Origin: Pollenia angustigena
Lineage: Eukaryota; Arthropoda; Insecta; Diptera; Polleniidae
DNA: 64,000 bases
NCBI GenBank assembly: GCA_930367215.1
Contig: OV884058.1
Coordinates: 110,073,802 to 110,137,801, forward strand
Direction of reading: 5' to 3'
Each line of letters opens with the position of its first letter. The stretch's first letter is position 1. Positions 9,201-61,084 of the stretch are shown here, in pieces. The notes under the pieces were generated by a model. The model saw only the letters and a program-made list of their open reading frames with translations, was not told the origin of the DNA and searched no databases. The position numbers and the translations under genes were made by a program.

Positions 9201-12200
9201 GTCTAAATAAAATTACACTGATGTCATTACTGTCAACGTAAAACAGGTGTTACTTTCAAATTCTGAGCCAGAGTCATTATGAATTGGATTCCTTGAAAGT
9301 TTAATTACATCTTCCGGATGAAAAGTCTAAAAGCATTTTATAATATAATTTTATAATAAGCTGCTCTATTCATATATTTTTGGAAGACCCTTTATTAAAA
9401 ATACATTGAAAATGTTTTCAGTCAAATCGAAATGCACAAAAAACCCCTGGCTTATGATTCGGATTAAAAATTCCAATGCAGACAGTATTTTCGTAATAAA
9501 ATTAATTAAAATAGAATAAATATTATTATTATTATTATTTAATTTTTTTTTTTTTGTTAAAAACAAAGGTTTTTGAACTCATTTTGCATGATTTAGCAAT
9601 TATTTTTATTATGTTTGCTAATTTATAGTTTTAACAATGGATGTGGTTAAATCGTAAAAAATCGTGTGTAAATTTTTGAAGTAAGAGCATTTTTAGCTAT
9701 TATTTAAAACATTCATATATCTTTATTTTTATAATATTCACCAACAACAACAAGCACACGTTTTTTTTTTAAATTGAAGGGCTTATTGTTATAACATCAT
9801 ATGCCACAAAAAAAGTATTTTGAGATAATCGACTTTTAAAGATAAAAAAATAAAAATAAATTAAAAACATTGAAATATAAATGATGAAGCTTACATCTTT
9901 TGAGGGATGTTGGGATGGTTATTATCAATAGGAAAAGACACATAAACCCAGTTTTTCAATTTGGGTGGCTAATGGTGTTATAGCAATAAGCACTAAAATT
10001 CAAAAATGTTTACTTAAAATTTTATCATATTTGTTACATGTAGAATAAAACATAAAAAAAAAAATAAATATATCATTATAATTCACAGGTCATTGACTTC
10101 ATCGCAGACACCATCTTCTGGACAAACACCTGGTCATGGTACACCTTTACAAGGTGGTATATCAAGTTATTCCCGCAATTCATTAATTGATTGTATGCCA
10201 ATACCATCAGTTGGTTCACCAGGCACACCCGCGGCATCACCTCATCCAAATTCAGCATTATCTCAGCCGACATCCGTACCACCAGCCGATCAAGTAAGTT
10301 ATAGTTATAGTAAACTTTTTTTTTAATAAAAAATTCCTCCAAAATCGAAAGTATGTAGTCAAAAGAAAAATTTCAATCACTAGAACTCTTTGTAAATTAT
10401 AACATCTCAATTTTACATTGCAATAACTAGCTATTTAAATCCCTTTCACCAATTTCGTCATATATTTTTTTATTGCAGCTTTTATCTATGAGTCCACGTG
10501 CTCCCACATCAGTATCGAATTTGCAACAACCTTCTACTCCAATAGATCATTTGTTGGATAAAAATACTCCAGCTCCCACGCCCACTGACCAGCACGATAA
10601 TAAAAGTATAACAGCATCACCATATGTACATCCGGCGCCAAGTGTTGAGCCACCTCCCTCGGTGGAAGGTATTCATAATACCATAGGAGGTGGTGGTAGT
10701 GGTAATATGGGTCCAGGCAGTGTGCCTCCACCATTAAGTGTTGGTCGTTGTACACCTACTCCTCAACAGCAGCAACATCATCAACAACAGCAGCAATGTG
10801 GTTCCATATCTGTTAAGAAATTTGATTTACAAACTACTAATTTAAATCCCCTTAACAATGCTGCTCTACATATGACCGGAAATACTACGGGCAATTGTAC
10901 AACAACCAATAATTTAATTGATATTAAGTTAGAATCAAATACCAACAATTTAAACAATACAAACTGTACGATGAACAGTTCGGTATTGATTAACAGCAAC
11001 TTGAATAGTAATGAATCCCGATTATCTTCAGCCACAAATGCAATGAACGATTTTTTGAATTTATATAAACCGCCAAAAATCAGTGTTAAAGATATTGATA
11101 CATTCGCTAACGAAGATTGCCTCAAGTTAGATGTGCTCTATGATTACACCGTACAGGATGCTTGGTAAGTTTTGTGAATACTTATTGAGGGTATTCACGT
11201 CACAAGTTGCACCCTTGAAAAAAAGCAAAAGCGCGAAAATATAGCAACAACCACACAGACAATAAGTTGTGCGTAAATAATTGTCTTTGTGGTTGTTGTT
11301 ATGTTTTTGCACTTTTGCTTTTTTGCAAGGGTGCAACTTGTGACGTGAATACCCTTATTATATGTGTACTTAAACAATGTAGAGCTTTTAAAGGGATATT
11401 TTCTATCAAGTCTTTAGTTAATATCATCTTGGGTTCTTAGAATAACAAATTTTTGATTCAAATTGAATATACATAATATACCATTCGATATATTATATAA
11501 ATTAAACTCTAATGCATATCGAAAGATGATTGTATGCATTCGAATTTAATAGACACTTGAAACATTTTATGAAATAGCAAAGTCAGAATGTTTATGTAAC
11601 TTAAAAAACTTATTCAACACTTCTTTTAGGGCAAATCATCCTGTCAAACGTTTTAAACCCAACGATATCTCCAAGCAATGTCGTGTAATGTGCACAAAAA
11701 AGCTATATGAAGGTCACACGCACACAAAACCTCGAATGCCTTCACCACGATCTGTTTATGGAGCCCAATTATTATCTATAGATCCCTCGGCAGCAATGGC
11801 CTGCAGTTCAGGCAATCTTGATTCTAATGTCAATATGGGCACAGGTCTGGTAGGTATAGCAGCAAATTCAATGGCAAACAATCAAGTGGATTGTAAAAAT
11901 AATGAGAGTTCCATGGGTGGTGTTGGTATGATGGGTGGTGTAAATGCCACATCATCCGGAAATTTTTTTGAAGAACTTGACATAAAAACGGAAATTATGT
12001 CTGGAATGGGTACATCCTCAACGTCACCGTGTAAAGATTCCAAGAGTGGTATAGGGGGAAATTTGTTTACAGTGGAGGGCCTCAATCCTTCCCCAAATGA
12101 CTTGGAGCAATTATTTGAAACCTCCTCAAATGATGAGTGTGGCAGTGTACAGATACACACGCCACCAGATTCTAATAATCCATCCAATGGTTGTGCCATT

Positions 12201-15200
12201 ACTACCAACACCATTGATGAACTGAAACGTACCACAAATGCTACTTTAGTAGGTACAGCAGGCGTGCAGGGAAATAGTAGCGTTCCAGCGAATGCCGCTG
12301 TTATGGTGGCTTTACAAAATTGTAATAACAATGCTCCAAACTCGACTGGGACGTCCCTAAACAATAGTGGTGGTAGTTTGTCAGGTTTAGGAGGTGGTGT
12401 TGGCGGTGCTAACACCATACAGGCTGAGGATTTGACAAAGATGTTTCCTACACCGCCCTCCCACGAACAACATCATCCGAATTCGAGTCCCTGTCAAATG
12501 GATATACAAATGACCGATTTAAGTGTTATAACTTCTTCGGCCATGATGGGTCAAACCCTAGATACTGGTTTGGGCATAAGTGGTATGTTGAAGATTAAAC
12601 AGGAATATTCCATTGAACTGGGAAGTCCGGTGGAGGAGCCTATTGAAGATTGGTCATATGTTTTTCGACCTCCCCAACAAGCAAAATTTGTAGGATCTTC
12701 AAAATATGCGCCGCTCACAAATTTGCCTAGTTTAACAATGCCACCTTTGGTTATACCGCCCAATTGTCGCTATAAACCGTCATGGCAGCAGCCTCGAAGT
12801 ACCCACCAACACCAGCAACAACAACAACAGCAGCAGCAGCAATTGCAGTTACAACATCAGCAACAACAGCAGCACCAACAACACCAGCAACTGCATGAGC
12901 TTTTATCAGCTGCTCCTAGAACTCCTCTACAACAACCTCGTACCCCATTGGGTCCTATGTCTTCATCACCTATGCACAATACCGTACCCACACCTCTAAA
13001 TAGTGGAGGAGGTTGTGGAGGTGGGAGCTTATTGTTAAATCAACTTAATTGTCCCCAGGCTGCCCTTACAAATACCCCACCCACAATGCAACAACTAATG
13101 CAACGCACTGGTATGTCACCCATTTCGCCAGCCGCGCATGTACCGTTTCCTCACACCAGTCCCATGATGCAGCAACAACAGCAAAGACAAACGCCCATAC
13201 ATCCGCCACCGCCATACGAAGTTGCCGTTTCCAGTCCTGCCTTATCCACTGCTTCTTCGACTCCAGCATATCTCAACAGACCGTATCATTCACAAGAACC
13301 CCCTCAGACACCGCAAAGTGTAAACAATCACATGCAGACAATAGGTGGGCCATCCAGTGTGCCTGGCGGTAACCGCGAGTCCTCCAGCATGGGCTACTAC
13401 GCCGGAGTTGGAGGCAATACTCACAGTAACAGCAATAACAACTCGATTATTCGCGGATTGCCCGAAGTAAGTTCAGTAATTGTCAATATACTACTTTACG
13501 ATACGGCATTGAATGTTTTTCGTGACCACAATTTCGACAGTAGTACGGTGTGTGTTTGTAATGCTGATAATCAACATTTCGGTAATATTCGAGGCTCAGA
13601 TTCGGGAGTATACGTGCCGCTGCCTGGCACCACCTTTAACCCTACATCATCATCTTCTTTAACTACGTCGAATGCATTACGTGCCCTAAGTGCCTTTGGA
13701 TCGGTAGGATTGGGAGTAAGTGGAGTAGGTTTAGGTGGAGGTATTGCGAATTCCCTAGATTCACCTGCGTCGTTGGCTGGAGCAGGCTCCAGTTCTTCCA
13801 CGACACCGTCTACAACAACGCCAGCCAATAATGCACAGCAATATATCACAGGCTATTTGGACGATGATGCTGTTGAGTGTACTTGCGGATTTAGTGCGGT
13901 AATCAATCGACGGCTGGCCTGTAAAGCGGGACTTTTCTACGAAGATGAGATGGAAATAACTGGTATTGCAGAAGATCCAGGCCGGCACAAAAAACATTCC
14001 CTGTTGACTTTAATAACCACACTCACATCGAAGGCCATTAATAACAATAACAATACTAACAACAGCAATGGAGTCATAGACAAGTCTGTTGAACAAGTGG
14101 CTTTTTCTATATTCGATTTACTCCTGGACCAATGCTCCATTATGCAGACGTCTAGCAGTGCTATACATCGTTCTTTGCAACGTCATCGGCGAAGATTGGC
14201 AAAAAAGTCACAGAAACCGCAATCGGTTGCTGCCATAGCGAATGTTCTGGAGTACATTGATTCCAACGATATAATTGCCTTGGCTTTGGAACAAGCCCGT
14301 TTGGCATTCGATAGTTCTCGCATGGATATTATGGAACAACAGATTGTTCCATTTTCAACGCATCGCAAACAAGCGGGCAATACCCAGTTGGCTTTAGCGT
14401 TAACAGGACGCATAAATGTTCACAAATGGCCTTATATTTCTGTAGGTTTTTCACGCAGTAATAAAGATATAGTTTCAACCATGAAATCTGTGCAACCCAT
14501 GCTACAAAATGCATTCCATTCCAAATCTCGAAATGCTGCCGGAGCTAAAGATGCTACCTATATTGTTAGTGGCCCCTTAACTTGGCGGCAATTTCACCGT
14601 CTCGCTGGCCGAGCTTCTGGACAGTGCGAGCCTCAACCCATACCTTCGGTTATAGTGGGCCATGATAAGGACTGGATTTCGGTAGCACCCTTGGCTATAC
14701 ATTACTGGGATAAATTTCTACTAGAACCCTATTCATATGCCAGAGATGTGGTTTATTTGGTTATTGCGCCTGACAACGATTATGTGTTAAGTAAAACGAA
14801 AACCTATTTCAAAGAATTGAGTACTACTTATGAAATGTGTAAACTGGGAAAACATACACCTATCTGTGGCTGGAATGGCCTGTTAACTGTGCAACAAAGA
14901 CCGCCCACAGAAAAGCTATTTACAACGACCATTGACAATTGGTTGCGCTCGCTAGATGATACCGCGTTAGCGGAAAAATTACGGCTGTATGCCTATGCCT
15001 TCCAACACCAGCTGGCTCCTTACCTCAATCGAGTTCCAAATGATAAGACTCTACTTAATCCTCTAGATAACAATACTCGAAATTCTTCTGGCAACAACGT
15101 GACATCAGCTTCATCAACTGTTTCGGCTTCAGGTAATGGTGGTTGTTCCAACCCCGGTCAGGATAACAGTGAACAACGTGGCAACATGGGATCAGATCAC

Positions 15201-43317: not shown

Positions 43318-43990
43318 AGTAAGAAAGTATAGTCGGTCAAGCCCGACCATATGGTACCCTACACCACAGTATTAAAAACACATCATGCTTATATGTCCAC
43401 ATAAATATGGATTTATCTATGTTTATAAACTTCATTAAAATCGGTTTGAAAGTTTGTGAGAGACAGAAATTGCCCCCCACCTCCCCTTGTGGTCTTATTT
43501 TTGAAAAACTGAATAGCTTGTGTGTCCATATAGATATGGATCTATCTATGTTTTAAATTTCATTAAAATCGGTTTGAGAGGCACAAATTGCCCCTATCTC
43601 CCCACGTGGTTCTAGTTTTTAAAAAATGCATCCCTTTTGTGTCCATAAAGATATGGTTCTATCTATGTTTTAAACTTCATCAAAATCGGTTTGAAATTTC
43701 CCCCTATCTTCTCTCGTGGCCCTATGATATAGCCCATTTTCAATAAGCTTGATCCTTGTGCCAATAATAACCTATGACCCAAATTTTATCAAATTATCTC
43801 CAAAATTGCGACCTGTACTTTGCGCACAAGGTTACATGGACAGCCAGCCAGCCTGCCAGCCGGACGGACATCGTTAGTTCGGCTCAGAAAGTGATTCTGA
43901 GTCGATTGGTACACCTTAAGGTGGGTCTAGGACCAATATTTTAAGCCGTTACACACATCAGCACAAATGCATAATACCCTCTCCACTATT
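43318..43990. repeat. dispersed repeat with three degenerate units of about 110 bp
   Basis: It opens with GTATAGTCGGTCAAGCCCG and ACCATATGGTACCCTACACC, then repeats a unit with TCTATGTTT, TTCATTAAAATCGGTTTGA and CCCC-rich words (43420, 43550 and 43670). It ends with AAGTGATTCTGAGTCGATTGG and CCACTATTGTGGTGTGGG. The layout parallels the repeat at 8095-8945. It is non-coding. Confidence 0.6.
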
Positions 43991-45239: not shown

Positions 45240-46034
45240 AAACTGTACTGTACGGGACGGGGAAATGATACCAGCTGGTTGCTGTTTACAAACAACCAGT
45301 GAATGTGGCCAGATTGTCGGCGGCGCTGGTATGCTGGCGGTTCGCGCGGCTAGAGCTCGCCGGATGGGGGTGGTTCTTGCCGACCAAATGGCTCAAAACC
45401 CGGGTACAAAAAAAAATCCATACCAGCTAGGAAAAATAATAATAAAAAGAAATGCTGGGGCTCGAAGTAGCTGACAAAAAATAAAAAACACGAAAACACC
45501 TCTTCCCTCACCATTTCCACACATCTCCGGCTGATGACGTGCCGGGATTGGCCCTCCCACTAGAGACGAAGTCTCTCCATGACATCCCCTTATCCCGGGA
45601 TGTCCCAAATCTCCACCTGCAAACGATTACACTCCTCTACTTACCCGCCATAACGAAATTTACCAACTCATAATAAAAAACAGGTAATGTTCATTTCAAA
45701 ACGTTATAAAACATGCCTTGTTTATTAAAAATAATAAAAATTGCAAAAAAAACAAATAAAACCCAAATCTTTAACAATAATCCATTTATGCTGGCAATTC
45801 TAATAAAATTTATAACCAAAAACAAATGTTAATTTAATTTACTTTTAAAAGTTAAAAGCACTTTCGGAATTTTTCCTTCTTTTTTTTTTTTTTTTTAAAG
45901 TTAAAATTTACTTTTAAAAGTTAAAAAAAAAATATTAAAATTTACTTTAATTTACCAAAATTGGGATTTAAAAAACCCATAAATACTCAAAAAAACAATA
46001 CTAATAAAATAAACTTTTGTTTTGTTGTCCGCAG

Positions 46035-46117
46035 CAACTCTAAAACCTGCCCTCCTGCCTCCAAGAAGAAGATATGATGTTCTGCCGTCCGTCCGTGAAT
46101 TGCTTGTCCTAGTAATG
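46035..46117 (+). ncRNA. antisense exon candidate in 3' LTR
   Basis: Acceptor TTGTTGTCCGCAG before 46035 and donor GTGAGT at 46118. A frame is open through it (LLPPRRRYDVLPSVRELL). The same signals occur in the other LTR at 57696. An AT-rich intron-like block precedes it, with a possible donor GTAATG at 45684. Confidence 0.45.
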
Positions 46118-46194
46118 GTGAGTCTAAAAAAACCAGTCTATATATACATATATATCACCTGCCTTAAAATCTACTGCCTTTTTTTTTTCTCTAG

Positions 46195-46308
46195 GGAAAC
46201 TTCAACACTACGGGTAAATCTACCCTAATCTGAACAAGAACCTAGGCTTGAGCTCAACCCTAACTACGCGCACTTCAGGCTCTAAATCGCCCAAAGGACT
46301 GAACCACG
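46195..46308 (+). ncRNA. antisense exon candidate in 3' LTR
   Basis: The acceptor is a T10 tract then CTCTAG, and the donor GTAAGA is at 46309. All three frames contain stops, so it would act as leader or 3' UTR. The next acceptor, TCTGTCCGTAG, is at 46379-46389 and opens a further exon. Confidence 0.4.
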
Positions 46309-47479
46309 GTAAGATTTCCCTCACAAAAAAAAATAGCTTAAATTTCAAAAAACCAAGTTTAATATATTTATATTTTATTCTGTCCGTAGGTCGACTGTTC
46401 TTGTGTCTTGTCCGATGTCAAGGCAGATACCTGGATTCCACAAGGTTCGGTGGTGCTTACGGCTGGCTGTTCCAACGCGGGTGTGACACGGGAGATTTAC
46501 TGGCGCACTCGGCTGTTTATTTCTTTTCTTTATTTAAAATATCTTCTTTTTACTTTAATAATTATTTTGCAGTGTACAAGCTTACGTTTTTTTTAACAAG
46601 CTTATATATTTTTTTTGGTTTATTATAACTTTTATTTGCAATGTACTGTCTTTTATTTTTTTGTTCTTTATTAAACTTTTAATTTGTGCTCTATTTTAGT
46701 TTCTTTTAATTAAATTTTATATTTAGTTGAAAATTTAAACTTACTTCTTACTTTTAAATTTCACTTTTTCTTTTTGCAATAATAAAATAAATACAAAATT
46801 TACAAAGTCTTTACGATGTCTTTTCTTTTCCAAATCAATTCCTTCTTTTAAAACTGCCGGTGGCCACTCGTCACACTTAACTCCAGAAAACAAAAAAAAG
46901 AGCGACATTTTTCATTTTTGCCCCCACGAAACCTCGGGAACGCTACCTTCCACCATTTTCGAAAATCTTTTCCTTTCCTCAGCAAAAAAAACTAAAACAT
47001 AAATACCAAATTCCTCTTTCTCTACCTCTAATTTTCCTTTCTTTTCATATTTATTTTTTTTCCCTACAGCTGTCTCACTTTTATAAACAAACAAAATTTT
47101 CCCTTTTTTCATACAACACTGCCTTATCCTCTTTAGGGTGACCATAACAAACCCAACCATTCCTTAAATTCACTAGTGAATTCAGGATGGGAGGGAAAAA
47201 GGAACCATCATAGCGAAAAAACAATGTATCAACTTTTGGAGATTTTGGGTATTTTTCCTTGAATTCCCAAAAATTAAACGATATGGCAACTTTGATTACC
47301 GATATGAAAATAAATACAACACTGAAAGTACTGTACCCTTCGGAACGAACTGGCAACACTGAAACCATTTATTAATTAATAGCCTTATGAATGAATGGAA
47401 AAGGAGAATGAAAGAAACGAAAATAGTAGCGTGATTTTACACACATAATATTACACCAAAAACAACGAAACAGAGATGA

Positions 47480-49093
47480 ATGGTAAGTCGACATTTTTAT
47501 TGCAATTTATTAAAATTAAATTATTTAGGTATAAATTAAATATTTGTACATTAAATTAATATTATATATTAACAAACTCTATTTCTTTTCAGGAAGTGAT
47601 GACCGATGCTCAACAATATCGGGAAATAAAGGTGAGTACAAAAACATTACTAATGAAAAAATTTTATTTCAGGTTACAATAGCGACGACAGGCGACAACT
47701 TTTCTGTGATGGCGATTTTCCGGTGGGATTTTAATAGAAAAAGGTATGTAACCAAAAAAAAAATTAACGTAATTTTGCAACAATTGGGATTAATAAGTGT
47801 TTAACTTTCTTTTTACTTTCAGGAAATTCTTTCTCGCCAACCTTAAGGGTATGTGGACGGACATATGGAAGACGGCAAAACAACAATGGTGTAATCAAGG
47901 TAAGTGCAAATAATTTAAGTGAAAAATACTTTAATATAAATGTGCTCCGCGACTACCGTTATAAAAAAAGTGTGGAATGTTCCTTACAGTGCGCAACAAA
48001 AATTTTCTCACGCGCAACAAAAAAATTAAAACTAAATTTTCAAAAGCGGTTGCCCAAAAATAAAAAACATGCGATTGAAATAAAACCAAAAAAAAGTTAA
48101 TTTTAAAATAACAGTGCGGAAAAAAAAAATCCTTACGGTTCTAAAAAAAAATAAAAATCTTTTTTGAAATGGTTTTAAATAAAACGCGAGTGAAAAAAAA
48201 ACATAAAAAATATAATAAATTTGAAAGCAACAGTGCGCGAAAAAGTAAATGGGAAAAAAAAATGTATAAAAAATTATATGCACAAAAAAACAACTTGTTG
48301 CTTTTGCCTCTATTTTCCAAATAAAAAAATTATAAAACTGTGGATATTTTCAATATCAATACAAAAATTATCAAAACTTTGCCGTTTCAAACCGTGTGCT
48401 AATTGATTAAATTGAATATAGCTCAGGCTTTAGCAATTCCCAGCAAACACTTCGCAAGTCGAAATTATTTCCTTTTAAACCAAACAAAAAAATTAAGATT
48501 TTTGTTATTTAATTTAATATTTCAAAAAAAAAAAATTTTGATTTGTGCTATTTAATTAACATTTTAGTTAAAACTTTACTTCAACACAACTAAAATGACA
48601 ATTAAATCAAAATCATATTTTCACAAAAAAAATTTTTCCTCAACGATTATCTTGAAATACGCTACCAACAAAAAAATTTCTTTTGTGTGTATGATTGTGA
48701 ATTTTAAAGGGTGTACCCAAAAAGAGTTGTGCGAAAACAAATTATAAAAATTAATGAATTTTTTTTTTCTAATACGAGTGTCGCAATAAACAAAGTGTGC
48801 TGTGAAAAGTTAAAAAGCTTTTGATATATAAAAAAACAGAGTTGTGAAAAAAAAAAAAAAATATATTGCTTTTAAATTACTTTGAAATGCAAATGTTTTC
48901 TAATTTTGCCCGTTATATTAATCAAGTTTAACTAAAATTTAAAAAGCATTTTTAAGGCAACAAAAAAAATTTTAATTCTTATTATTATGCCTATATCATT
49001 TCGAGATTTTTACCGAAATTTATTCTAATAACGTTTTATTTTGTTAATTTTCCTACAGGTGCAATAGATTGGCCTACCTTCATCGAAAAATAA
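47480..49093 (+). CDS. antisense spliced ORF A of the retrotransposon (74 codons, 5 exons)
   Basis: The exons are 47480-47482 (ATG only, donor GTAAGT), 47593-47631 (donor GTGAGT), 47673-47743 (donor GTATGT), 47823-47899 (donor GTAAGT) and 49059-49093 with TAA at 49091-49093. All acceptors are pyrimidine-rich and end in AG. Joined, they give one open frame of 74 codons with an Asp/Lys/Trp-rich product (pieces such as MAIFRWDFNRKR and MWTDIWKTAKQQW); no family is recognised. An overlapping ATG at 47476 with a better -3 base would read a different frame and stop after 35 codons, so the start is uncertain. The strand is opposite to gag-pol, so these introns would survive in genomic RNA. Protein expression is inferred. 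Confidence 0.5.
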
Positions 49094-49371
49094 AAAACAC
49101 AAACCGTGCAGAGTCATACGGCCTACGGCCTGGGAGTGCAGGGACTAAAACCACCAAAGCCCCTTGAACTTTGGCAAGAAGAACCCCCTGCAATTCCCTT
49201 AAGAAATTGCCAGAAAATCGGTAAATTATGAAAAAAACGTGAAAGGTGATTTTATGAAAAAAAACTATATAAAACTCAAAATTCAAAATTACTAATTAAA
49301 ATCCTTCCCCCACAGGTCCTAGCCATGCAATTCAGGGTGACCAGATGGGGACTTGTAGCCACTGTTAACCA

Positions 49372-49942
49372 ATGACGTAAGTAAAACAAAACTAAATAAT
49401 ACAAAACCGAATTATCAATTTAAATAAAAATAAAAATAAAAAAAAATAATGGGGGTATTACCCGAAATAGAAACGCAAGGACTAAAACCACCAAAGTGTT
49501 ACAACTTTGGCGGGAATTACCCCCTGCGATTTCCGAAAAACAAACATCAGAAAAAGAAAAACAAAATAAAAATAAATTTACATGATATCCCGATTAAATT
49601 TTCTAAAAGGCGCTTTTACTAATGTTTTTACAAAAATTCACTCCTAACTTTTAGAACATTTAATCAGAAAAACTCAAATTTGTATTGCGTAAACTAATGT
49701 TTCCTTTCTCCCCAGGCTAAACAATTCACGGGACCTGGGCCAAAAGAAGACCAAATATCGGACTCAACTAAAAAAAATTCAGGGGAATGGGTGAGCCCAA
49801 TATTTGCTTAAAATTATAATACCTAAGAAAAACATATACTAAAGTCTTTACACTTTTACAACAGGTTACTTCCTTTACTTCACACCAATTCTGATGACAA
49901 CATGCCTCAACCGACTACTACAACAACAATACAGATCTTATG
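49372..49942 (+). CDS. antisense spliced ORF B (52 codons, 3 exons plus stop across the large intron)
   Basis: ATG at 49372 is near the end of exon 49316-49376 (donor GTAAGT). Exons 49716-49790 (donor GTGAGC) and 49865-49942 (donor GTGAGT) keep the frame open. The stop TGA is made by TG at 49941-49942 and the first base of the next exon at 56289. The product is Lys/Asn-rich, then has a PQPTTTTTIQIL tail. It is shorter and less complex than ORF A, so coding is less certain than the splicing signals. Confidence 0.35.
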
Positions 49943-50864
49943 GTGAGTCTTACGTTATAAGTTATCTATCAAAAAAAAACCCCCAAACTAGGTATATAGG
50001 TATTTAGTAAGATAAATGTCATTTCCATTTAACAAATATTTGACGCAAAAAATAAAAATAAAGGCCTGGTTATTAAATGGCATTAATTTACCATAATGAC
50101 CACTAATTTTGGCTGAAATTCAAAATTTTATTAAACAAAAAAAAAATTAACTAATAATGTAATTAATTAAATGCCAAATGCCTTTTAATTTAGCCAACGT
50201 TAGGCAAAATCAAACAATTATTTAACAAAAAAAAAGTGTTTACGTGTAGGTGTCAAATATTTGTTTAATGTGATCGTAGCTCTAAAGGACACTAAGACGG
50301 GTTACGCGAATCACGTCTAATACGACACATCGCGTACACATATTGATATAGATTTGCATTGGCATACTGAAATACAATTTTCGGATAGCAGTATCATACT
50401 TTAATAAAAAACGAAATCAGTGCTTTGGTTTTTTACCAAGCATTGATTAAATAAGTCCGTATATTTGTTCCAACTTGCTGTAAGATCGGACTCAGAAAAT
50501 GTCATTAATTCTAGGTGACTAACAACCCTTAGCTCTTAATAGCATAGTTCTTCAGAGTGATCATGGGGTTGCACTATTAGAAACGATGACGGTTACATAT
50601 GTAGCCAGTTAAGAAACGTTAGCTATTGGTTGGAACAAAATCAGGACTTCAAAATATAAAAAAAACAAAACGTGATATTGCTATTTCATAATATAACCAA
50701 AAACCAAAGCTGCCAAAATAAAAGTAAATCAAAACCAATATGTGTTTGCGTAGTCGTCTTATGACGCCTAGCGAAAATAAAACTAAAAAAAAAGTATAGC
50801 AGTAGAGTTAGGTTTAAAATTTAAGTATAACCTATGCGCATATTAAATAGGTTTCCGCGATACG

Positions 50865-53800
50865 TTATTGTTTTAAGTCTTTCCCGTGAAATACTCCCAA
50901 CGATTTTCCCATCAGATCTTCCACCTCGTACAGACTGTTTCCGACCGGTTTTACTATACGGCATTTTAGGAACTTTCGGGCAAATTTCGCGTTAAAACCG
51001 GTTTTAAAATCGCTCTGCTGAAAGTTTCTACGGTATACTTCTTGTCCCGGTATAAATTTAATGACTCGGCATCGCGTATTATAAGATTTTTCACCCCGCA
51101 AATAAGCTTTATGTAAGCTTTCTCGCATATTTTGCCTTAAAAGGTCCATTTTCGCTGATTCCGGCAAAATATCCGACTCCACGTCACGTAACATTTTAAG
51201 TTTTCTAGCTATTTTGTACACGCTACCATGGCCTATCATGTTCATACCGAACAGAGCAAAATAAGGTGTTACACCAATCGAAGTTTGTACTGAAGATCGC
51301 AATGAAAACTCTATTTCGGATAAATGTTTGTCCCACTCAGAGTGATCTTCCTTTAAATACGTACGAATAGCGGCCAAAATTGTCTGATTCACCCGCTCGG
51401 ACGCATTTGCTTGCGGCGAATGTGTTGCCGTGCGGAGATGCTTGATACCAAAATTCTCTACCATGGTACTAAATTCTTTACTGGTAAATTGCTTGCCATT
51501 GTCAGAAACAATAGTTTCTGGTGTTCCAAATTTATGGAAAACTTCTGCTATCAGAAATTTGATAACATTTTTGGTACTAGCTTTTGCCATTGCCTTAAGT
51601 AAGACAAACTTTGTAAGATGGTCTAATACGATGAAAATATAGCAATTTCCGTTCTTTGAACGCGGGTATGGGCCGAGAAAATCAATAAAAATTCGTTGAA
51701 ATGGACGATCACTTATTATTTCAGCCCCCATAGGTGGGCGTAGTGTTACGTTAGCCGGTTTCGCCTCTTTACATACTTCACAATTTTTTACAAAGTCGCG
51801 AATTTCAACCGTCTGGTGCGGCCAATAAAAATACTCCCGGACTCTGCGGAGAGTCTTTCCTATGCCCCCGTGAGCAGCTTGCGGCGAATTGTGAGCGTTT
51901 CCAATGATAGTTTTGGTTAGTTCGAGAGGTACCCATAGCTTCCAAGCAAAATCTTCGCTTAAAACTTCACCATCATATGGACGTACCCTCTTGTAAACAA
52001 AACCATCAACTACTTTTAAGTCAGGTAATTGCTCAGAATTTGCTTCTACATTAGAAACAAGCTCTAAATAATTACTTGACTTAAATGCATCGGAATTTAA
52101 GTCGATCATACTACCAACCTCCGCCGATATTTCTGACATTTCGTAGCGCGATAGGGTATCAGGTACTACGTTTTGTTTCCCCTGCCTATGCTCGATAGTA
52201 AAATCGTACGCCTGCAAATGCAAACTCCACCTCGCCAATCGACCGGTCAAGTCCCTATGTGACATAAGCCACTTAAGACTGCTGTGGTCGGTAATAACAG
52301 AAAAAGACATCAATTCTATATAGGGCCTAAACTTCTTAATCGCCAAGACAACTGCCAGACATTCTCGCTCAGTGACAGAATAATTCTTTTGTGCTGAAGT
52401 TAATTTATGCGAAAAATAGGCTATTGGGTGCTCACCATCAGAATCGTCTTTCTGGAAAAGAACAGCCCCAATACCTACATCCGATGCGTCACACTGAACG
52501 TAGAAATGTCTGGAGAAATCCGGATGATTAAGAAGTGGGCTCGTAATCAGAGCTTCCTTGAGGCGATCAAACGCGACCTTAGCTTCATCCGAAAACTTGA
52601 ATTGCTTCCCCTTCTTTAGCGTTTCAAAGATTGGGGCTGCAATGGTAGCATAGTCAGGTATAAATTTTCTATACCATCCTGCTGCTCCCATGAAGCTCCG
52701 CACTTGCTTGGCTGTTTTAGGGTAGGCAAAACGAGAAATCGTGTCCACTTTAGCCGGATCAGGCTTTAATTTGCCACCTCCAACTATATACCCCAGATAC
52801 CGTAACTCTTTGAAACAGAATTTAGATTTAGCCACATTAATAGTTAGCCCTGCTGCACGCAACTGAATAGATACCTGAGATAACAATTCCAGGTGTGTCT
52901 CGAAATCTGGAGACACTATCAAAAGATCGTCTAAGTAGACGAAAACTCTATCACGTAGTGCTGCGGGAATCACTTTATCCATCAAACGACATAACCTTTG
53001 AGCTGCGTTGCACAGCCCAAATGGCATGACCGTAAAATGGTAAAGTGGTCGCCCTGGCACAGTGAATGCAGTTTTCTCCCTACTAGACGGGTCTAGTGGT
53101 ATCTGCCAGAAAGCGTCCTTTAGATCGACACTGGATATAAAAATCGTGTCTCCCAAGCGACTGAGCAAACCTTCGATATGCGGTAATGGATAGGCATCCT
53201 TGACTGTCAGTGCATTAAGCTTGCGCGCGTCCAGGCATAACCGGTTTTTCTCACCCTTGCGGACCAGAGTAACCGGATGACTCCATGGACTCTCACTAAG
53301 CTCAATGACACCCAGGTCAAGCATCCTATCCAGCTCCGCAAACATTAATTTTTGTACAGCCGGGGAGACTGGATAGTGACGATCCTTCACTGGAATAGCA
53401 TCCCGTGTATCTATTGAGTGCGTTTCTAAATTTGTTTTACCTAAGCCATTCTTCATATAACAGGGAAACTTTAATATGACCGAATCCAATTTCTGCTGCT
53501 GTTCAGCTGTCAAATTATGAGTTACGACATCTGAAGTACTATCTGCCTCTTCACAGAGACTTACTTCATTTGTCGTAAGACTATCAAGGTTGGCAAATAA
53601 TTTGAAAGCCTTCATAAAGTCGACACCCAAGAAAAGCTCTCGACTCAGAGTAGGCACTAAATAAAAGGTGACAACTTCTCTTTTACTACCGAGCCTTACC
53701 TCCGCCCGAACACGACCGACAATTTTATGCGCCGTACCATCCGCGGTTTTGATAATACTCAAAAAATCAAAGATTTTAACACCGGTATCTTTAAGAAAAT

Positions 53801-54142
53801 CTAAACAATTTCGCCCTAAACACGTTACCGTGGCTCCACTGTCCAGAAGACCTTCGATTTGCTTACCGCCTATTTCAATTCTAGTATATAATCTAGCATC
53901 TTCGCCCTCGTATAACGCTGCTGCCGCGATTTCATTTCTTATTTTCCTGCGAATTTTATATCGCTCTCGCGCCTTTTTAATTTTGCTTGATAGTTCCCCA
54001 AAAATCCTCTCTTTTGCCTCTTTATACTCTTTAAGCCTAATATGTAATGGCCTAAGCTCTCGCAGCCGAGGTTCAGGGGTTGTCTCTCGGGCTGCCCTGT
54101 CCTTATTGACTAAAATACTCATACCTCTCACCTGTAAATCTG

Positions 54143-54173
<31 letters not shown>

Positions 54174-54245
54174 AACTGGGTCTAAACTTCGGTTGACCGC
54201 GCCTCCCCAGTTCGAGACGGGTTCCGTGACCGGTTTCCCTGGCAC
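50865..54245 (-). CDS. pol: Pol polyprotein: protease, reverse transcriptase, RNase H, integrase
   Basis: About 1,126 codons, translated by -1 frameshift from gag. After a Gln tract (residues 25-34) come an aspartic protease with DSGA (135-138) and reverse transcriptase with YLDD (437-440). RNase H has CDASDVGIG (D586) and TDHSS (D653). Integrase has an HHCC finger (about 785-825) and the D855, D915, E950 triad (FIDFLGP, VSDNGKQF, NASERVNQ). It makes element DNA in the particle and inserts it into chromosomes. All key residues are present and there are no stops. The C-terminus ends soon after a GPY/F-like stretch; no chromodomain and no env follow. Confidence 0.95.
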
Positions 54246-55990
54246 TTAGGGCATTTTGGTGTCACTACACCATCCCTACCACAACGAAAACAAAATTGCC
54301 TAGTTAACGGTTCTGGACAATCCACAAAACTATGGCCGACAACCTTGCAATTCCAGCAAGTATAATGGCTTGTAGAACGTATTGCGTCCACCTCTAAATC
54401 GACCAATGACAAATCCTCCTCACCCTCCAGCTCGTTTACCCTTTGAGGCAGATTGGCCCTCTGCTGAAACATTTGCCTCTGATTCGCCAACAAATTTTCT
54501 GCTCGCCTTGCTTCCCGGCAAAATTCTGATAAGGTGCTAATTCGCACAGAAAACATCATTTGACCCAGAGATGGTTTTAAATTACCTCTCATAATCTCCA
54601 CTAATTGCGCCTCCTCATATGGGGTTTGCTGCTGATTGCGCAATCTGATTACAGAATTGTAAAAATCATCGAAAGGTTCATGGGGTAACTGCCTACGATT
54701 TAAGATTTTCATTTGAACTTGGTACTCATGTTCAAATCGACGATATTGTGCCAACAACGCTTTTTCCAACTCTTCCCAAGTGTTAATATGGACTATTTTT
54801 CGGTAATCCCAGTACCAGTCCAAAGCTGGGCCATCTAGCAACACGTGAAAGCTACGTAAAATTTCATCATCGGTACAATTATAATCTTTTCTTAGAGTTC
54901 CCACTCTAAAGATAAATTCTTGAATATTCATCGTCTTGTTAGTACCATCAAATTTCACTCCCCACTTTTCCAATTTAAATTGGTTTAGGGCTGGATTTTG
55001 CCTTGGCATAGACATAGCAAAGTGGTAATTTTGCGGTTGACCTACTGGTGGATGTACTGCTGGTGCAGACCAGGCATCCTGTGGATAGCCTGGCCGCATA
55101 TTAGCATACGACTGCGGTTGGCTATAAAACGGTTGAGACTGGTTGGACCGAGGCTCTTGGGCCTGTGGTGGCAATACTTGCTGCTGCTGATGAGCAGTTG
55201 GCGGTTGAAATGGCAAAGGGTTTTGTTGTTGTAACGAGAATTGTTGTTGTTGATATGACGTTTGCCGAGGTGCCTGTGGCACCGATGGCATGTCATATAC
55301 ATACTGCGCTGCTTCAGCGTACTGTGGAGCTGGGACCAAAGGTGGTGGTGGTATATACGGTGGATGCACTGTTTCTGCTACCGCTGGCCTTACGGTTTGC
55401 CCATAATTAAAAACTTGTGGCTCTCTTGACATTCTAGCCAACACTGGTGGCTGATAATTGCTCGAAGGAGCTGACCTTGGGGGCAGGCTTTGAACTGCTG
55501 GGGCAAAACTTGCAGGTGGTGGAGCTGATTGCGTGCTTGCTGATTGTGACATAAGCAATTGTTTAATGTCTTCTAGCGCTTTTTGTATTTTATTGTCCAC
55601 CTCTTGCATAAGCCTGGCTTGGCATAGGCCCACAGACGCCTCTACTATTTGTTGGACATTGCTACCGCTCCTTGGCGCTTCCATTACTGCACTCTCACGC
55701 ACTTCTCGCCTTATGTTTTGGGCTGTTTCACTATAAAAAGTTGGTGAAACTACCGTCTGATTTAGACTATCCGAGCTAATGGACACATCCTGAGATGGCA
55801 AAGTAGTAAAAATTGGGTGATCTGTAGCGGCTGCTGCTACTATTGTCGTTGTGATGGACGTAGGGTGTGTTAAATTACTGATCGTTACTGTGGTAGCGGT
55901 ATCAGTACTACAAGTGGCACTTGCTCTGGTTGTCGCCATAGTGTTGTTGTTGTCCCCTACCGAACGGCTGGAACTACGGGTTAAAACCAT
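54182..55990 (-). CDS. gag: Gag polyprotein of the LTR retrotransposon
   Basis: The 602-residue protein starts at ATG (55990-55988) and packages element RNA into particles. A Ser/Thr- then Pro/Gln-rich first half (to about residue 320) is followed by the conserved gag core with GPALDWYWDYR and the helical WEELEKALLAQYRRFE stretch. Near the end is a CCHC knuckle (C545, C548, H553, C558), then a second Cys cluster (C567, C570, C580, C583) lacking the usual His. The last 16 codons run past the slippery heptamer at 54233-54239 into the pol overlap. The frame is fully open, in keeping with a recent insertion. Confidence 0.92.
   Translation of the reverse strand: MVLTRSSSRSVGDNNNTMATTRASATCSTDTATTVTISNLTHPTSITTTIVAAAATDHPIFTTLPSQDVSISSDSLNQTVVSPTFYSETAQNIRREVRESAVMEAPRSGSNVQQIVEASVGLCQARLMQEVDNKIQKALEDIKQLLMSQSASTQSAPPPASFAPAVQSLPPRSAPSSNYQPPVLARMSREPQVFNYGQTVRPAVAETVHPPYIPPPPLVPAPQYAEAAQYVYDMPSVPQAPRQTSYQQQQFSLQQQNPLPFQPPTAHQQQQVLPPQAQEPRSNQSQPFYSQPQSYANMRPGYPQDAWSAPAVHPPVGQPQNYHFAMSMPRQNPALNQFKLEKWGVKFDGTNKTMNIQEFIFRVGTLRKDYNCTDDEILRSFHVLLDGPALDWYWDYRKIVHINTWEELEKALLAQYRRFEHEYQVQMKILNRRQLPHEPFDDFYNSVIRLRNQQQTPYEEAQLVEIMRGNLKPSLGQMMFSVRISTLSEFCREARRAENLLANQRQMFQQRANLPQRVNELEGEEDLSLVDLEVDAIRSTSHYTCWNCKVVGHSFVDCPEPLTRQFCFRCGRDGVVTPKCPKCQGNRSRNPSRTGEARSTEV
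54233..54239 (-). promoter_or_regulatory. -1 ribosomal frameshift site GGGAAAC
   Basis: The - strand heptamer GGGAAAC sits in the gag frame as G GGA AAC, the canonical X XXY YYZ form. It lies straight after the CPKC cluster and 16 codons before the gag stop. The pol frame is exactly -1 relative to gag and has no ATG near its beginning (the open frame begins at a GTG). GC-rich sequence downstream could form the stimulatory structure. Confidence 0.8.
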
Positions 55991-56884
55991 TTAAAAAAAC
56001 GACTTTAGTCTAAAAAAAATCAAATAAACCAATTCAAAAAAAAACGTACCTTAGGCAAAATGGTATTGTAAACTCCAATATTATCCAACGCGAGGGTAAT
56101 ACAAACTTAAGAACAAAGTTTTATATAAATCTTGCTAAAAATTTAAATTTCAAAATAATTCAAAAATAAAAAAACAATAAAAATTTTTGGCGGTTTATTT
56201 CGAGGAAATGTAAACGTTTGCAGGTAAAGTAAAAAAAAATAATATTTATATGTGTGAAAGTAATGGTAAAAAAAAGTATAATTTTCAGATGCTAAACAAA
56301 CAAACAATTGGAAAAATGGAAATTGATCTTCCCTGCGACCGGGCTGCAACGATAAGAACTATTCCAGAATGGTTCCCTGGACTAACCCTAGTCATAGCGA
56401 TTCCCGCGGATGAACATCAAAGAAAGCAAACGTGAGTATCACCATAAAAAAATCAATTTTATTGACTATCCAAACTATTATCATGTAAGGGATGGTTTTC
56501 CCACCCTTGCCTCACATCTTGAGCCACTCCTATACTGATTTATTGGTAATCATGTACCGGCCTCAAGCTGTTAGGAAGGATCGGGAGTGATGAATCGTTA
56601 AGTCATCATGCCATATCGCTCACACCTAATGTCACAGCGCGAGATAGTCTGCACAGTCTCTTCCTTCGGGACTTACATAGGTGTGAACGCCATGCTCATG
56701 ACAACTCACACGATTCATAACGCCTATTGTGCTGTAAAAAAACAAAATTAAAAAAAAACCTATTTAGATTGGTCGCTACGGTTTAGGGACTCTTACTCCT
56801 ACCTATCCGGACTTACTAACCTAAATAGCTTGTAACCATATTACTTCCTATACATTTTATTTCCAGGCTATGGAACTACTTCGG
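55991..56884 (-). other. retrotransposon 5' leader
   Basis: About 0.9 kb between primer site and gag start, without sense coding sequence. On the + strand it carries two antisense exon candidates (56289-56431 and 56867 onward). Confidence 0.7.
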
Positions 56885-56930
56885 GCCCCACGTTGGGCGC
56901 CATTCTGTACTGTACGGGACGGGGAAATGA
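56289..56930 (+). CDS. antisense spliced ORF C (68 codons, 2 exons), ending in the LTR
   Basis: Exon 56289-56431 begins directly with ATG and ends at donor GTGAGT; exon 56867 onward follows acceptor TTATTTCCAG and reaches TGA at 56928-56930, inside the 5' LTR. The second exon reads through the complement of the tRNA-Lys primer site, so those bases double as codons (FGPHVGRH). The product contains IPEWFPGLTLVIAIPAD, unlike random AT-rich translation. No family is recognised. Confidence 0.45.
56885..56902 (-). other. primer-binding site complementary to tRNA-Lys
   Basis: On the - strand it reads TGGCGCCCAACGTGGGGC, the perfect complement of the 3' end of insect tRNA-Lys (recalled), three bases inside the 5' LTR. 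This primer is shared by gypsy, Ulysses and Osvaldo. Confidence 0.9.
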
Positions 56931-58810
56931 TACCAGCTGGTTGCTGTTTACAAACAACCAGTGAATGTGGCCAGATTGTCGGCGGCGCTGGTATGCTGGC
57001 GGTTCGCGCGGCTAGAGCTCGCCGGATGGGGGTGGTTCTTGCCGACCAAATGGCTCAAAACCCGGGTACAAAAAAAAATCCATACCAGCTAGGAAAAATA
57101 ATAATAAAAAGAAATGCTGGGGCTCGAAGTAGCTGACAAAAAATAAAAAACACGAAAACACCTCTTCCCTCACCATTTCCACACATCTCCGGCTGATGAC
57201 GTGCCGGGATTGGCCCTCCCACTAGAGACGAAGTCTCTCCATGACATCCCCTTATCCCGGGATGTCCCAAATCTCCACCTGCAAACGATTACACTCCTCT
57301 ACTTACCCGCCATAACGAAATTTACCAACTCATAATAAAAAACAGGTAATGTTCATTTCAAAACGTTATAAAACATGCCTTGTTTATTAAAAATAATAAA
57401 AATTGCAAAAAAAACAAATAAAACCCAAATCTTTAACAATAATCCATTTATGCTGGCAATTCTAATAAAATTTATAACCAAAAACAAATGTTAATTTAAT
57501 TTACTTTTAAAAGTTAAAAGCACTTTCGGAATTTTTCCTTCTTTTTTTTTTTTTTTTAAAGTTAAAATTTACTTTTAAAAGTTAAAAAAAAAATATTAAA
57601 ATTTACTTTAATTTACCAAAATTGGGATTTAAAAAACCCATAAATACTCAAAAAAACAATACTAATAAAATAAACTTTTGTTTTGTTGTCCGCAGCAACT
57701 CTAAAACCTGCCCTCCTGCCTCCAAGAAGAAGATATGATGTTCTGCCGTCCGTCCGTGAATTGCTTGTCCTAGTAATGGTGAGTCTAAAAAAACCAGTCT
57801 ATATATACATATATATCACCTGCCTTAAAATCTACTGCCTTTTTTTTTTTCTCTAGGGAAACTTCAACACTACGGGTAAATCTACCCTAATCTGAACAAG
57901 AACCTAGGCTTGGGCTCAACCCTAACTACGCGCACTTCAGGCTCTAAATCGCCCAAAGGACTGAACCACGGTAAGATTTCCCTCACAAAAAAAAATAGCT
58001 TAAATTTCAAAAAACCAAGTTTAATATATTTATATTTTATTCTGTCCGTAGGTCGACTGTTCTTGTGTCTTGTCCGATGTCAAGGCAGATACCTGGATTC
58101 CACAAGGTTCGGTGGTGCTTACGGCTGGCTGTTCCAACGCGGGTGTGACACGGGAGATTTACTGGCGCACTCGGCTGTTTATTTCTTTTCTTTATTTAAA
58201 ATATCTTCTTTTTACTTTAATAATTATTTTGCAGTGTACAAGCTTACGTTTTTTTTAACAAGCTTATATATTTTTTTTGGTTTATTATAACTTTTATTTG
58301 CAATGTACTGTCTTTTATTTTTTTGTTCTTTATTAAACTTTTAATTTGTGCTCTATTTTAGTTTCTTTTAATTAAATTTTATATTTAGTTGAAAATTTAA
58401 ACTTACTTCTTACTTTTAAATTTCACTTTTTCTTTTTGCAATAATAAAATAAATACAAAATTTACAAAGTCTTTACGATGTCTTTTCTTTTCCAAATCAA
58501 TTCCTTCTTTTAAAACTGCCGGTGGCCACTCGTCACACTTAACTCCAGAAAACAAAAAAAGAGCGACATTTTTCATTTTTGCCCCCACGAAACCTCGGGA
58601 ACGCTACCTTCCACCATTTTCGAAAATCTTTTCCTTTCCTCAGCAAAAAAAACTAAAACATAAATACCAAATTCCTCTTTCTCTACCTCTAATTTTCCTT
58701 TCTTTTCATATTTATTTTTTTTCCCTACAGCTGTCTCACTTTTATAAACAAACAAAATTTTCCCTTTTTTCATACAACACTGCCTTATCCTCTTTAGGGT
58801 GACCATAACA
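56906..58810 (-). repeat. 5' LTR (1,905 bp)
   Basis: It directly follows, in element orientation, the target duplication AAAC at 58811-58814 and is followed by three bases and the primer-binding site. It starts TGTTATGG and ends AGTACA on the - strand. It should carry the sense promoter, but I could not pick an initiator with confidence. Confidence 0.93.
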
Positions 58811-58987
58811 AAACTCTAACATATACGGACTTTTGTGTCCGTGCTCTCTTTAATATTACCAATTGAATACTTTTCAGCTTTATTTAAACGATGAAGTAAT
58901 AGAAAAATGTTTTCAGAGTGGTTGGAATGAAAAATATGTAGTTTTCCTTGAATTTGTGAAAGTGTATTAGTGAGAGATTTCAAATAG

Positions 58988-60899: not shown

Positions 60900-61033
60900 T
60901 TTATTTGCTTGGCGGCCGCGAGGGACGGCTTAGCCTTCGCCGATTGTTTTAAAATTTAGTTTGGCGTTTATTTGCTTGGCGGCCGCGAGGGACGGCTTAG
61001 CCTTCGCCGATTGTTTTAAAATTTAGTTTGGCG
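60900..61033. repeat. 67-bp perfect tandem duplication, GC-rich core
   Basis: The unit at 60900-60966 is repeated exactly at 60967-61033. Its core GGCGGCCGCGAGGGACGG is much more GC-rich than the surroundings. Confidence 0.9.
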
Positions 61034-61084
61034 TCGTTTTTTATCAATACCCACCGAATTGGGCGGTTAAAGACCACCTAATAT

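Follow-up and report, generated by a model that had tools for sequence, protein, structure and literature searches.

A candidate host-spliced antisense unit in a Ty3/gypsy element of Pollenia angustigena

Does the strand opposite gag and pol in an insect LTR retrotransposon carry introns that the host could splice? The question arises at one element in our window, a 64,000-nucleotide stretch of the Pollenia angustigena genome, in which an earlier reading (the original prediction) described a chain of consensus splice sites on the + strand, antisense to an intact element. The splice-site evidence is the DNA sequence of this one copy.

A young element with a long region after pol

The element is indeed intact: its LTRs are 99.8% identical, and gag and pol are both open. 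Its parts are:

58811-58814 and 45240-45243, + strand: target duplication AAAC, 4 bp (sequence reading)
56906..58810, - strand: 5' LTR (self-BLAST, 99.8% identity to the 3' LTR; ends 5'-TG...CA-3')
54182..55990, - strand: gag ORF, 602 aa (PF03732, E 1.4e-9)
50865..54245, - strand: pol ORF, 1126 aa; protease, RT, RNase H, integrase (profile matches)
49473..49538, - strand: sense-strand hairpin, copy 2 (fold z -5.53 on -, -3.50 on +)
49136..49202, - strand: sense-strand hairpin, copy 1 (fold z -2.87 on -, -2.35 on +)
45244..47149, - strand: 3' LTR (self-BLAST and ends read by eye), U5 side at 45244

The pol ORF overlaps the gag ORF in a different frame. The pol order (protease-RT-RNase H-integrase), the paired LTRs with TG..CA ends, the target-site duplication, and a tRNA primer site (presumably of the tRNA-Lys type) are those of Ty3/gypsy elements (Metaviridae). 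The LTRs differ at only four positions, so this copy is young, and none of these differences touches a GT or AG dinucleotide in the antisense chain. As the U5 side of the 3' LTR is at 45244, antisense transcripts would run inward from there. Between the 3' LTR and pol lie 3.7 kb (47152-50864, the post-pol region), which are AT-rich with plentiful homopolymer runs.

The best 120 of 3013 pol relatives include proteins from Stomoxys, Lucilia, Episyrphus, and Ceratitis, and these fly relatives among the matches listed place the element in higher flies. Bacterial and archaeal assemblies held 11 distant loci (26-38% identical), which were set aside, and no viral contig encoded a related pol. The primer-site pattern found a single contig, which matched neither the pol nor the DNA of the window and matched gag only at chance level (E 0.77). 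A search for the hairpin pattern in DNA found no relatives, and the RNA-family search gave two miRNA matches, both far under the gathering score.

Splice signals on the antisense strand

We scored splice sites with a matrix, and branch points with frequencies, that were not trained on P. angustigena. All eight named donors (GTAAGT, GTGAGT, or GTATGT) are exactly at their predicted + strand positions, and in the post-pol region these hexamers occur seven times on the + strand and never on the - strand. The companion claim, that a pyrimidine-rich AG follows each donor, holds for six of the eight (the next acceptor in the chain has at least 9 bits). It fails for 47632, whose acceptor has only 5.9 bits, and for 49943, whose first downstream acceptor of at least 9 bits is at 50933. 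Donor 56432 (8.5 bits) is isolated, and donor 46118 is inside the LTR, hence repeated at 57779. At least ten donor/acceptor pairs had been claimed; the best chain does have 13 introns, but we judge only nine to be well supported. In each of the other four (45329, 46214, 46481, and the 49943-50555 junction), one end is weak or unproven. The well-supported introns and their exons are (scores in bits; branch-point positions relative to the acceptor):

46118..46194, + strand: LTR intron, ATG/GTGAGT ... CTCTAG; donor 11.1, acceptor 12.4; no branch-point support; 5' LTR copy at 57779-57856
46309..46389, + strand: LTR intron; donor 8.9, acceptor 8.4; no branch-point support; 5' LTR copy at 57971-58051
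46983..47482, + strand: candidate exon of the chain over the LTR/internal border, ending ATG/GTAAGT
47483..47592, + strand: intron 1, 110 nt; donor 10.7, acceptor 11.9; TTAAC branch point at -21
47593..47631, + strand: exon 2, 39 nt
47632..47672, + strand: intron 2, 41 nt (short for a fly); donor 12.8, acceptor 5.9; CTAAT at -20
47673..47743, + strand: exon 3, 71 nt
47744..47822, + strand: intron 3, 79 nt; donor 10.0, acceptor 12.3; TTAAC at -19
47823..47899, + strand: exon 4, 77 nt
47900..49058, + strand: intron 4, 1159 nt, GC 24%; donor 12.4, acceptor 10.7; CTAAT at -31
49059..49245, + strand: exon 5, with the stop of the 74-aa frame at 49091-49093
49246..49315, + strand: intron 5, 70 nt; donor 8.5, acceptor 10.7; CTAAT at -21
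49316-49376, + strand: exon 6
49377..49715, + strand: intron 6, 339 nt; donor 8.1, acceptor 13.8; CTAAT at -19
49716-49790, + strand: exon 7
49791..49864, + strand: intron 7, 74 nt; donor 8.1, acceptor 7.9; clear branch point absent
49865..50080, + strand: candidate last exon, AATAAA at 50051 and 50057, putative end
47480..49093, + strand: putative spliced 74-aa frame (ATG at 47480-47482, then exons 2-5)

The border exon could instead start after the acceptor at 47069 or 47136 (12.5 bits for the acceptor of the 46983 exon, then 11.5 and 9.4 bits), or there may be a putative promoter between 47150 and 47480. Donor 49943, inside the candidate last exon, would instead lengthen the chain.

Over the 3' LTR and the post-pol region (45243-50864), the chain search scored 70.0 on the + strand versus 9.9 on the - strand, with a maximum of 16.3 in 200 shuffles. 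Among 32 search windows of real DNA, the top four + strand scores (70.0, 52.2, 51.4, and 31.9) all came from windows that overlap this region. The best window clear of it (52473-58094, inside the element) scored 31.7 on + and 27.9 on -, and the best score outside the element was 28.9. A chain of antisense splice signals this strong is well beyond chance. Taken alone, donors and acceptors on the + strand of 45243-50864 each numbered 9, versus 1.7 expected (0 of 400 shuffles for either), while the - strand was near expectation (3 donors, 3.3 expected, 251 of 400 shuffles; 5 acceptors, 3.6 expected, 117 of 400 shuffles). Donors in the LTR alone showed no clear enrichment (40 of 400 shuffles), and the leader had no splice-signal enrichment on either strand. 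In the same DNA, the inferred exon edges of the Med13 region have donors of 8.5, 9.2, and 9.2 and acceptors of 8.1, 8.7, and 9.0. The lowest of these Med13-region edges is matched or exceeded by seven of the nine antisense donors and by seven of the nine antisense acceptors.

If we define a pair as a donor with an acceptor 40-130 nt away, both ends having at least 7 bits, then 45243-50864 has seven paired donors on the + strand versus one on the - strand (two of the seven use one common acceptor). Block shuffles averaged 0.34-0.43 pairs, with a maximum of 4, and reached 7 in 0 of 1,200 cases; the density is 1.25 pairs per kb versus 0.13 per kb in the 45-kb left flank. A cruder rule that uses no matrix found five pairs on the + strand and none on the - strand (five were reached in 1 of 1000 shuffles). 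Four of these are among the seven short introns of the chain and the fifth lies outside it. Elsewhere, this rule found 14 pairs on + and 11 on - in that flank, and three - strand pairs in the leader plus 5' LTR.

The exons had also been described as richer in GC than the introns. They are (38-54% versus 15-30%), except for the first-exon stretch 47380-47482, which has only 32%. The contrast between ten exons and nine introns, 0.209, was reached in 16 of 5621 shifts overall and in 0 of 5422 shifts of at least 100 nt, so the shifts that match it are nearby ones. Six of the seven post-pol introns have a fly-like branch point, a count of exact pentamers that was framed after the branch-point data had been viewed. 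The summed branch-point score of the post-pol introns is 35.1 versus 23.3 expected (15 of 2000 shuffles), and neither of the two LTR introns has branch-point support (1399 of 2000 shuffles were as high). Donors, acceptors, and branch points match up in a single orientation around GC-rich exons, far beyond what chance would give.

A proposed, mainly non-coding unit and its alternatives

We estimate a probability of roughly 55% that, on its + strand, this Ty3/gypsy element has an antisense unit that the host could splice and that would be mainly non-coding. Transcription by RNA polymerase II would start either within the U5 side of the 3' LTR or in the first 330 bp internal to it. The transcript would cross the region from the 3' LTR to pol, shed at least seven introns, and end near the AATAAA signals at about 50.05 kb. 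The spliced RNA would probably be mainly non-coding and would tune the expression of its own element, as was proposed for the antisense RNA of HeT-A; a short peptide from it is possible though unsupported. In its mode of action it would resemble the antisense RNAs of HeT-A or of HTLV and BLV. Reverse transcription copies genomic RNA of the opposite strand, on which these stretches are not introns, and this would let them persist. The original prediction made this argument and we judge it to be sound.

We prefer a non-coding unit because, in the full spliced model, the longest ORF is no longer than expected by chance (36% of 500 shuffles, for the first of 13 exon combinations only). The idea of a protein gene went unsupported, and the + strand has no ORF of at least 120 aa within 47152-50864, in contrast to the plant Retand elements. 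It is conceivable, if doubtful, that this is an accessory gene like HTLV HBZ, whose ATG would come from an exon in or near the 3' LTR and whose protein would have 74-122 aa. Donors 46118 and 47483 each directly follow an ATG, in the same phase, and these two alternative ATG/GT first exons reach exon 2 in one frame. The 74-aa frame stays open over four junctions, the first right behind its ATG, to the stop in exon 5. However, when the ATG is held fixed, this frame is equalled in 1.8% of 20,000 exon shuffles, some frame is open through exons 2-4 in 8.7% of exon shuffles, and the codon bias is ordinary (18% of 500 open shuffles). A 122-aa frame arises from one of the 13 exon combinations and has no chance level attached. 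A gene model with codon scoring reached 84.4 (shuffle mean 12.9, maximum 26.2, n=60), but splice sites supply most of this score, and the - strand, at 36.8, was likewise above all shuffles. A Pfam search had no match. The 74- and 131-aa models had no homologue among 5.8 billion proteins, in searches that reach only proteins of about 41-230 aa with short words in common. Matches to SmD2 and NF047607 (E 0.0025) are too weak for any claim: NF047607 has 17.7 bits, below its curated cut-off of 50, and an SmD2 origin, to which two of the three listed matches pointed (E 0.07 and 1.6) and for which Pfam had no match, was dropped as a claim. We also have little confidence in a conserved multi-intron antisense gene that is expressed from the element's own 3' LTR, with alternative ATG first exons spliced to internal ones and a small regulatory protein or RNA as its product, as an independently evolved invertebrate counterpart of the deltaretrovirus antisense genes.

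Instead of a function that has been maintained, the splice sites may reflect a recent capture. A host gene might have supplied a multi-exon piece, with its promoter, that went in antisense between pol and the 3' LTR and has been carried along since. This would account for well-formed introns in one orientation, with branch points in the internal introns and none in the LTR introns, and the best PDB match from phmmer (SmD2, E 0.07) is a lead only. We consider such a passenger unlikely, as the homologue searches above, within their reach, found no host counterpart, and an insertion into the internal region leaves the intron-like pairs of the LTR unaccounted for. A decayed relic, functional in an ancestor and with its splice sites still to be lost, would fit a single copy that has no clearly maintained ORF; most sites are near consensus and the copy is young, which makes this quite improbable. 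Composition is the least credible account. Retroelements use purine tracts, and polypurine runs in the sense strand or AT-rich DNA could mimic antisense acceptors, with donors nearby by chance; homopolymer runs abound in this AT-rich region, and the cruder rule does yield pairs elsewhere, such as the three - strand pairs in the leader plus 5' LTR. But local dinucleotide shuffles, the opposite strand, and the 32 real-DNA windows all speak against chance or composition. The purine-tract account is rejected because donors are enriched by themselves, on one strand only, and composition leaves the GC contrast and the branch points unexplained. This explanation is already largely refuted by the chain score and the one-strand enrichment.

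Known antisense transcripts and what a fly LTR element would add

The original prediction of novelty has to be tempered. In PMC3235214, antisense but not sense transcripts of Drosophila HeT-A are reported to be spliced in a conserved pattern, and at the RNA level there are four or more splicing types. Across an alignment of 168 genomic 3'UTRs, the splice sites are more conserved than their surroundings, and a regulatory or structural role was suggested for the RNA. Our element resembles HeT-A in being a fly retroelement with high-scoring predicted splice sites antisense to the region past its coding genes. HeT-A is a telomeric non-LTR element whose RNA has been observed, whereas ours is an LTR element with about nine good introns, known from DNA alone. 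The micropia element of Drosophila hydei, also a fly Ty3/gypsy element, has antisense RNA without coding capacity (PMC7264820) that is linked to the element's repression (PMC7264820, PMC6797199). Two such RNAs are described, 1.0 and 1.6 kb long, which by the title of the original paper are complementary to reverse transcriptase, and the passages available do not mention splicing.

Among retroviruses, antisense transcripts have been observed for HTLV-1 HBZ, which is a bZIP protein (PMC1459196), and for AS1/AS2 of BLV (PMC10186651). Like these, ours is an LTR element with a candidate antisense unit at the 3' end and candidate 3' LTR exons joined to internal exons; the donor/acceptor pairs expected of HBZ/APH-type LTR exons are present, though without branch points. 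Unlike these, it is predicted from DNA, lacks coding support, and has far more introns. The plant Retand and Grande elements have antisense ORFs that are described as uninterrupted, over 600 bp, and often with a TRP28 domain (PMC11963269, PMC7264820). They share a long region with antisense features between pol and the 3' LTR (2.9-6.6 kb there versus 3.7 kb here), but our element has no such ORF. We found no spliced antisense transcript of an insect Ty3/gypsy element in the literature searched, in which subscription journals were thinly covered. As far as we searched, a spliced antisense unit is already known for fly telomere elements and some retroviruses and would be new for insect Ty3/gypsy elements.

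If the unit is transcribed, then spliced antisense RNAs would extend from the telomeric non-LTR elements of flies and the retroviruses of vertebrates to an insect LTR element, and the long post-pol region would gain a role. Placement on the strand that is not copied would be a simple route by which a retroelement could retain introns, and the control of the element could be tied, in a testable way, to its antisense transcription.

The element and the region after pol

The LTRs of this retrotransposon (45243-47151 and 56905-58812) are 99.8% identical in a self-BLAST of the window, and their TG...CA termini place them at 45244-47149 and 56906-58810. A 4-bp target duplication flanks the element on each side (AAAC on the + strand), and a tRNA primer site, presumably of tRNA-Lys type, adjoins the 5' LTR. 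The pol frame is offset from the gag frame by two bases. Among the best 120 of 3013 pol matches listed, identity is at most 76%, and the named relatives are from Stomoxys calcitrans, Lucilia cuprina, Episyrphus, and Ceratitis. The LTR identity, the structure, the open gag and pol, and the fly relatives of pol mark it as a young member of Ty3/gypsy from a higher fly. The features discussed here are:

45243-50864, + strand: region under study (3' LTR and post-pol region)
46118-46194 and 46309-46389, + strand: LTR introns, predicted
46983-47482, + strand: border exon, a candidate exon spanning the border of LTR and internal region
47483-49864, + strand: chain introns 1-7, the predicted post-pol introns
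gag, - strand: open frame, 602 aa
pol, - strand: open frame, 1126 aa (protease-RT-RNase H-integrase)

Between pol and the 3' LTR is a gap of 3.7 kb, which has no + strand ORF of at least 120 aa. Within pol, 10 perfect copies of TTG (54144-54173; CAA on the coding strand) encode a glutamine run. Outside the element, there is a 68-bp tandem duplication with 100% identity (60900-61034) and, about 1.5 kb left of the element, a repeat of about 190 bp whose copies are 81% identical (43387-43699).

Splice signals antisense to the element

The antisense splice signals form a coherent chain. Donors and acceptors on the two strands were given bit scores from approximate splice-site frequencies for flies in general. 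In the region, seven + strand donors have a partner at 40-130 nt with both ends at least 7 bits (two of the seven use one common acceptor), versus one on the - strand. In three sets of 400 block shuffles, the mean was 0.34-0.43 pairs and the maximum was 4, and 0 of 1,200 shuffles reached 7. Taken alone, + strand donors and acceptors each number 9 versus 1.7 expected (0/400 shuffles for either), and both are near expectation on the - strand.

An intron-chain search, run without a coding term, scored the region at 70.0 on the + strand (13 introns) and 9.9 on the - strand; 200 shuffles had a mean of 5.9 and a maximum of 16.3. Among 32 overlapping windows across the 64 kb, the top four all overlap this region (70.0, 52.2, 51.4, and 31.9). 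The fifth (52473-58094; 31.7) is clear of it, yet within the element; it takes in some of the second LTR copy and has a - strand score of 27.9. The best window outside the element scores 28.9 and covers Med13. With a cruder consensus rule, the region has 5 pairs on the + strand versus 0 on the - strand, and 1/1000 shuffles reached 5; this rule recovers four of the seven short chain introns plus one pair outside the chain. It also finds 14 and 11 pairs on the two strands of the 45-kb left flank, and 3 pairs in the 2.8 kb of leader and 5' LTR on the - strand, which is the same density as on the + strand of the region.

All eight donors named in the original prediction are present at their positions. 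The pyrimidine-rich AG that was said to follow each donor is there for six of the eight, with the next chain acceptor at 9 bits or more, and fails for the other two. As to "at least ten pairs," the best chain has more introns than that, but four members have a weak or unproven end. Intron 2 spans just 41 nt, and its acceptor scores 5.9 bits. Both LTR introns have good ends, yet neither has a branch point, and the LTR by itself shows no clear enrichment of donors (40/400 shuffles; 5/400 for LTR acceptors). The donor at 56432 is isolated, and the 5' leader is enriched for splice sites on neither strand.

GC contrast and branch points are signals that are independent of the donor and acceptor motifs. 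The claim of GC-richer exons was confirmed: exons are 0.209 above introns (10 exons and 9 introns, leaving out the long border exon, whose final 103 nt are just 32% GC, and the intron preceding it). No segmentation shifted by at least 100 nt reached this contrast (0/5422; maximum 0.093), and the 16 of all 5621 shifts that did are nearby ones. CTAAY or TTAAC, a set chosen after the first branch-point results were known, lies 19-31 nt upstream of the AG in 6/7 post-pol introns, and before 23/70 YAG sites of the region, including those six. The summed branch-point matrix score of the post-pol introns was reached by 15/2000 shuffles, or by 10/500 with the LTR introns added.

As a host yardstick in the same DNA, we used exon edges inferred from open frames near Med13, which leaves stronger splice sites nearby unassigned (donors 8.5, 9.2, and 9.2 bits; acceptors 8.1, 8.7, and 9.0 bits). 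At least the lowest of these values is attained by 7/9 antisense donors and 7/9 antisense acceptors. The Med13 domain is in the large exon only, and a Pfam search of the smaller open frames around it gave no match. This large exon (Mediator subunit; PF06333, PF18296) is at 11688-16418 (+), about 29 kb from the element.

The LTR copies differ at four positions, none of them at a GT or AG of the chain, which shows the youth of this copy and gives no sign of selection.

Coding potential of the putative antisense unit

A spliced frame of 74 aa with its stop (47480-47482, 47593-47631, 47673-47743, 47823-47899, and 49059-49093, + strand) was equaled by 1.8% of 20,000 exon shuffles with the ATG fixed, and some frame is open across exons 2-4 in 8.7% of exon shuffles. 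In the first full spliced model, the one of 13 exon combinations for which this was computed, the longest ORF is at the chance level (36% of 500 shuffles). The donors at 46118 and 47483 are each directly preceded by an ATG in the same phase, which suggests that either ATG could open the same frame.

A codon-scored gene model reached 84.4 on the + strand (maximum 26.2 in 60 shuffles). The - strand model, at 36.8, is also above every shuffle, so this null is lenient, and the 84.4 mostly restates the splice sites. Codon use of the antisense frame is not telling.

A Pfam search of the antisense frame found no match. In a protein database search, no protein had three words in common with the 74-aa model, and a spliced frame of 131 aa had a single candidate, which failed to score. 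A PDB search gave three weak matches (best, SmD2 at E = 0.07). As the best listed pol match is just 76% identical and none is near-identical, the species seems to be absent from the protein database, so a missing antisense homolog is weak evidence.

Possible roles of the two strands

Part of the post-pol region may serve the sense RNA. It contains two copies of a hairpin, 337 nt apart (49136-49202 and 49473-49538, - strand), with a conserved internal loop. The predicted folds are -26.0 and -29.4 kcal/mol in sense RNA (z = -2.87 and -5.53) and -16.7 and -20.9 kcal/mol in antisense RNA (z = -2.35 and -3.50). As read by eye, the single base that differs between the copies retains a G-U pair in the sense RNA only. 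A 14-base piece of the hairpin, allowing up to 2 mismatches, occurs only twice in the window (0.37 expected; two in 5/100 shuffles). We take the location and doubling to resemble retroviral RNA export (CTE-like) elements. Because of these hairpins, the antisense unit is not the sole explanation for the post-pol length. Also on the - strand, a sense donor in the 5' LTR (CGG|GTAAGT, 12.0 bits) and a leader acceptor (10.4 bits) could bound a 575-nt leader intron (57306 to 56732).

Antisense RNAs are described in other elements. HeT-A of Drosophila has antisense RNAs that are spliced in a conserved pattern, while splicing was seen in none of its sense RNAs (PMC3235214; also PMC5537684). HTLV-1 and BLV have spliced antisense RNAs that start in the 3' LTR (PMC1459196; PMC10186651). 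In flies, the LTR element micropia has antisense RNAs that lack coding capacity (PMC7264820; PMC6797199). In its signals, our putative unit is like the HeT-A antisense RNA, but it does not belong to that family, and it is at most a candidate HBZ-type gene. No insect Ty3/gypsy element with a spliced antisense unit turned up in the literature searched.

We propose that an antisense transcript would start within the 3' LTR, toward its U5 end, or a short way inward of it, be spliced by the host, and end near AATAAA at 50051/50057. Reverse transcription would leave the introns in place, since the genomic RNA that it copies comes from the other strand. We favor a mainly non-coding antisense RNA, which, by analogy with the role proposed for HeT-A antisense RNA, would act on the element's own sense RNA.
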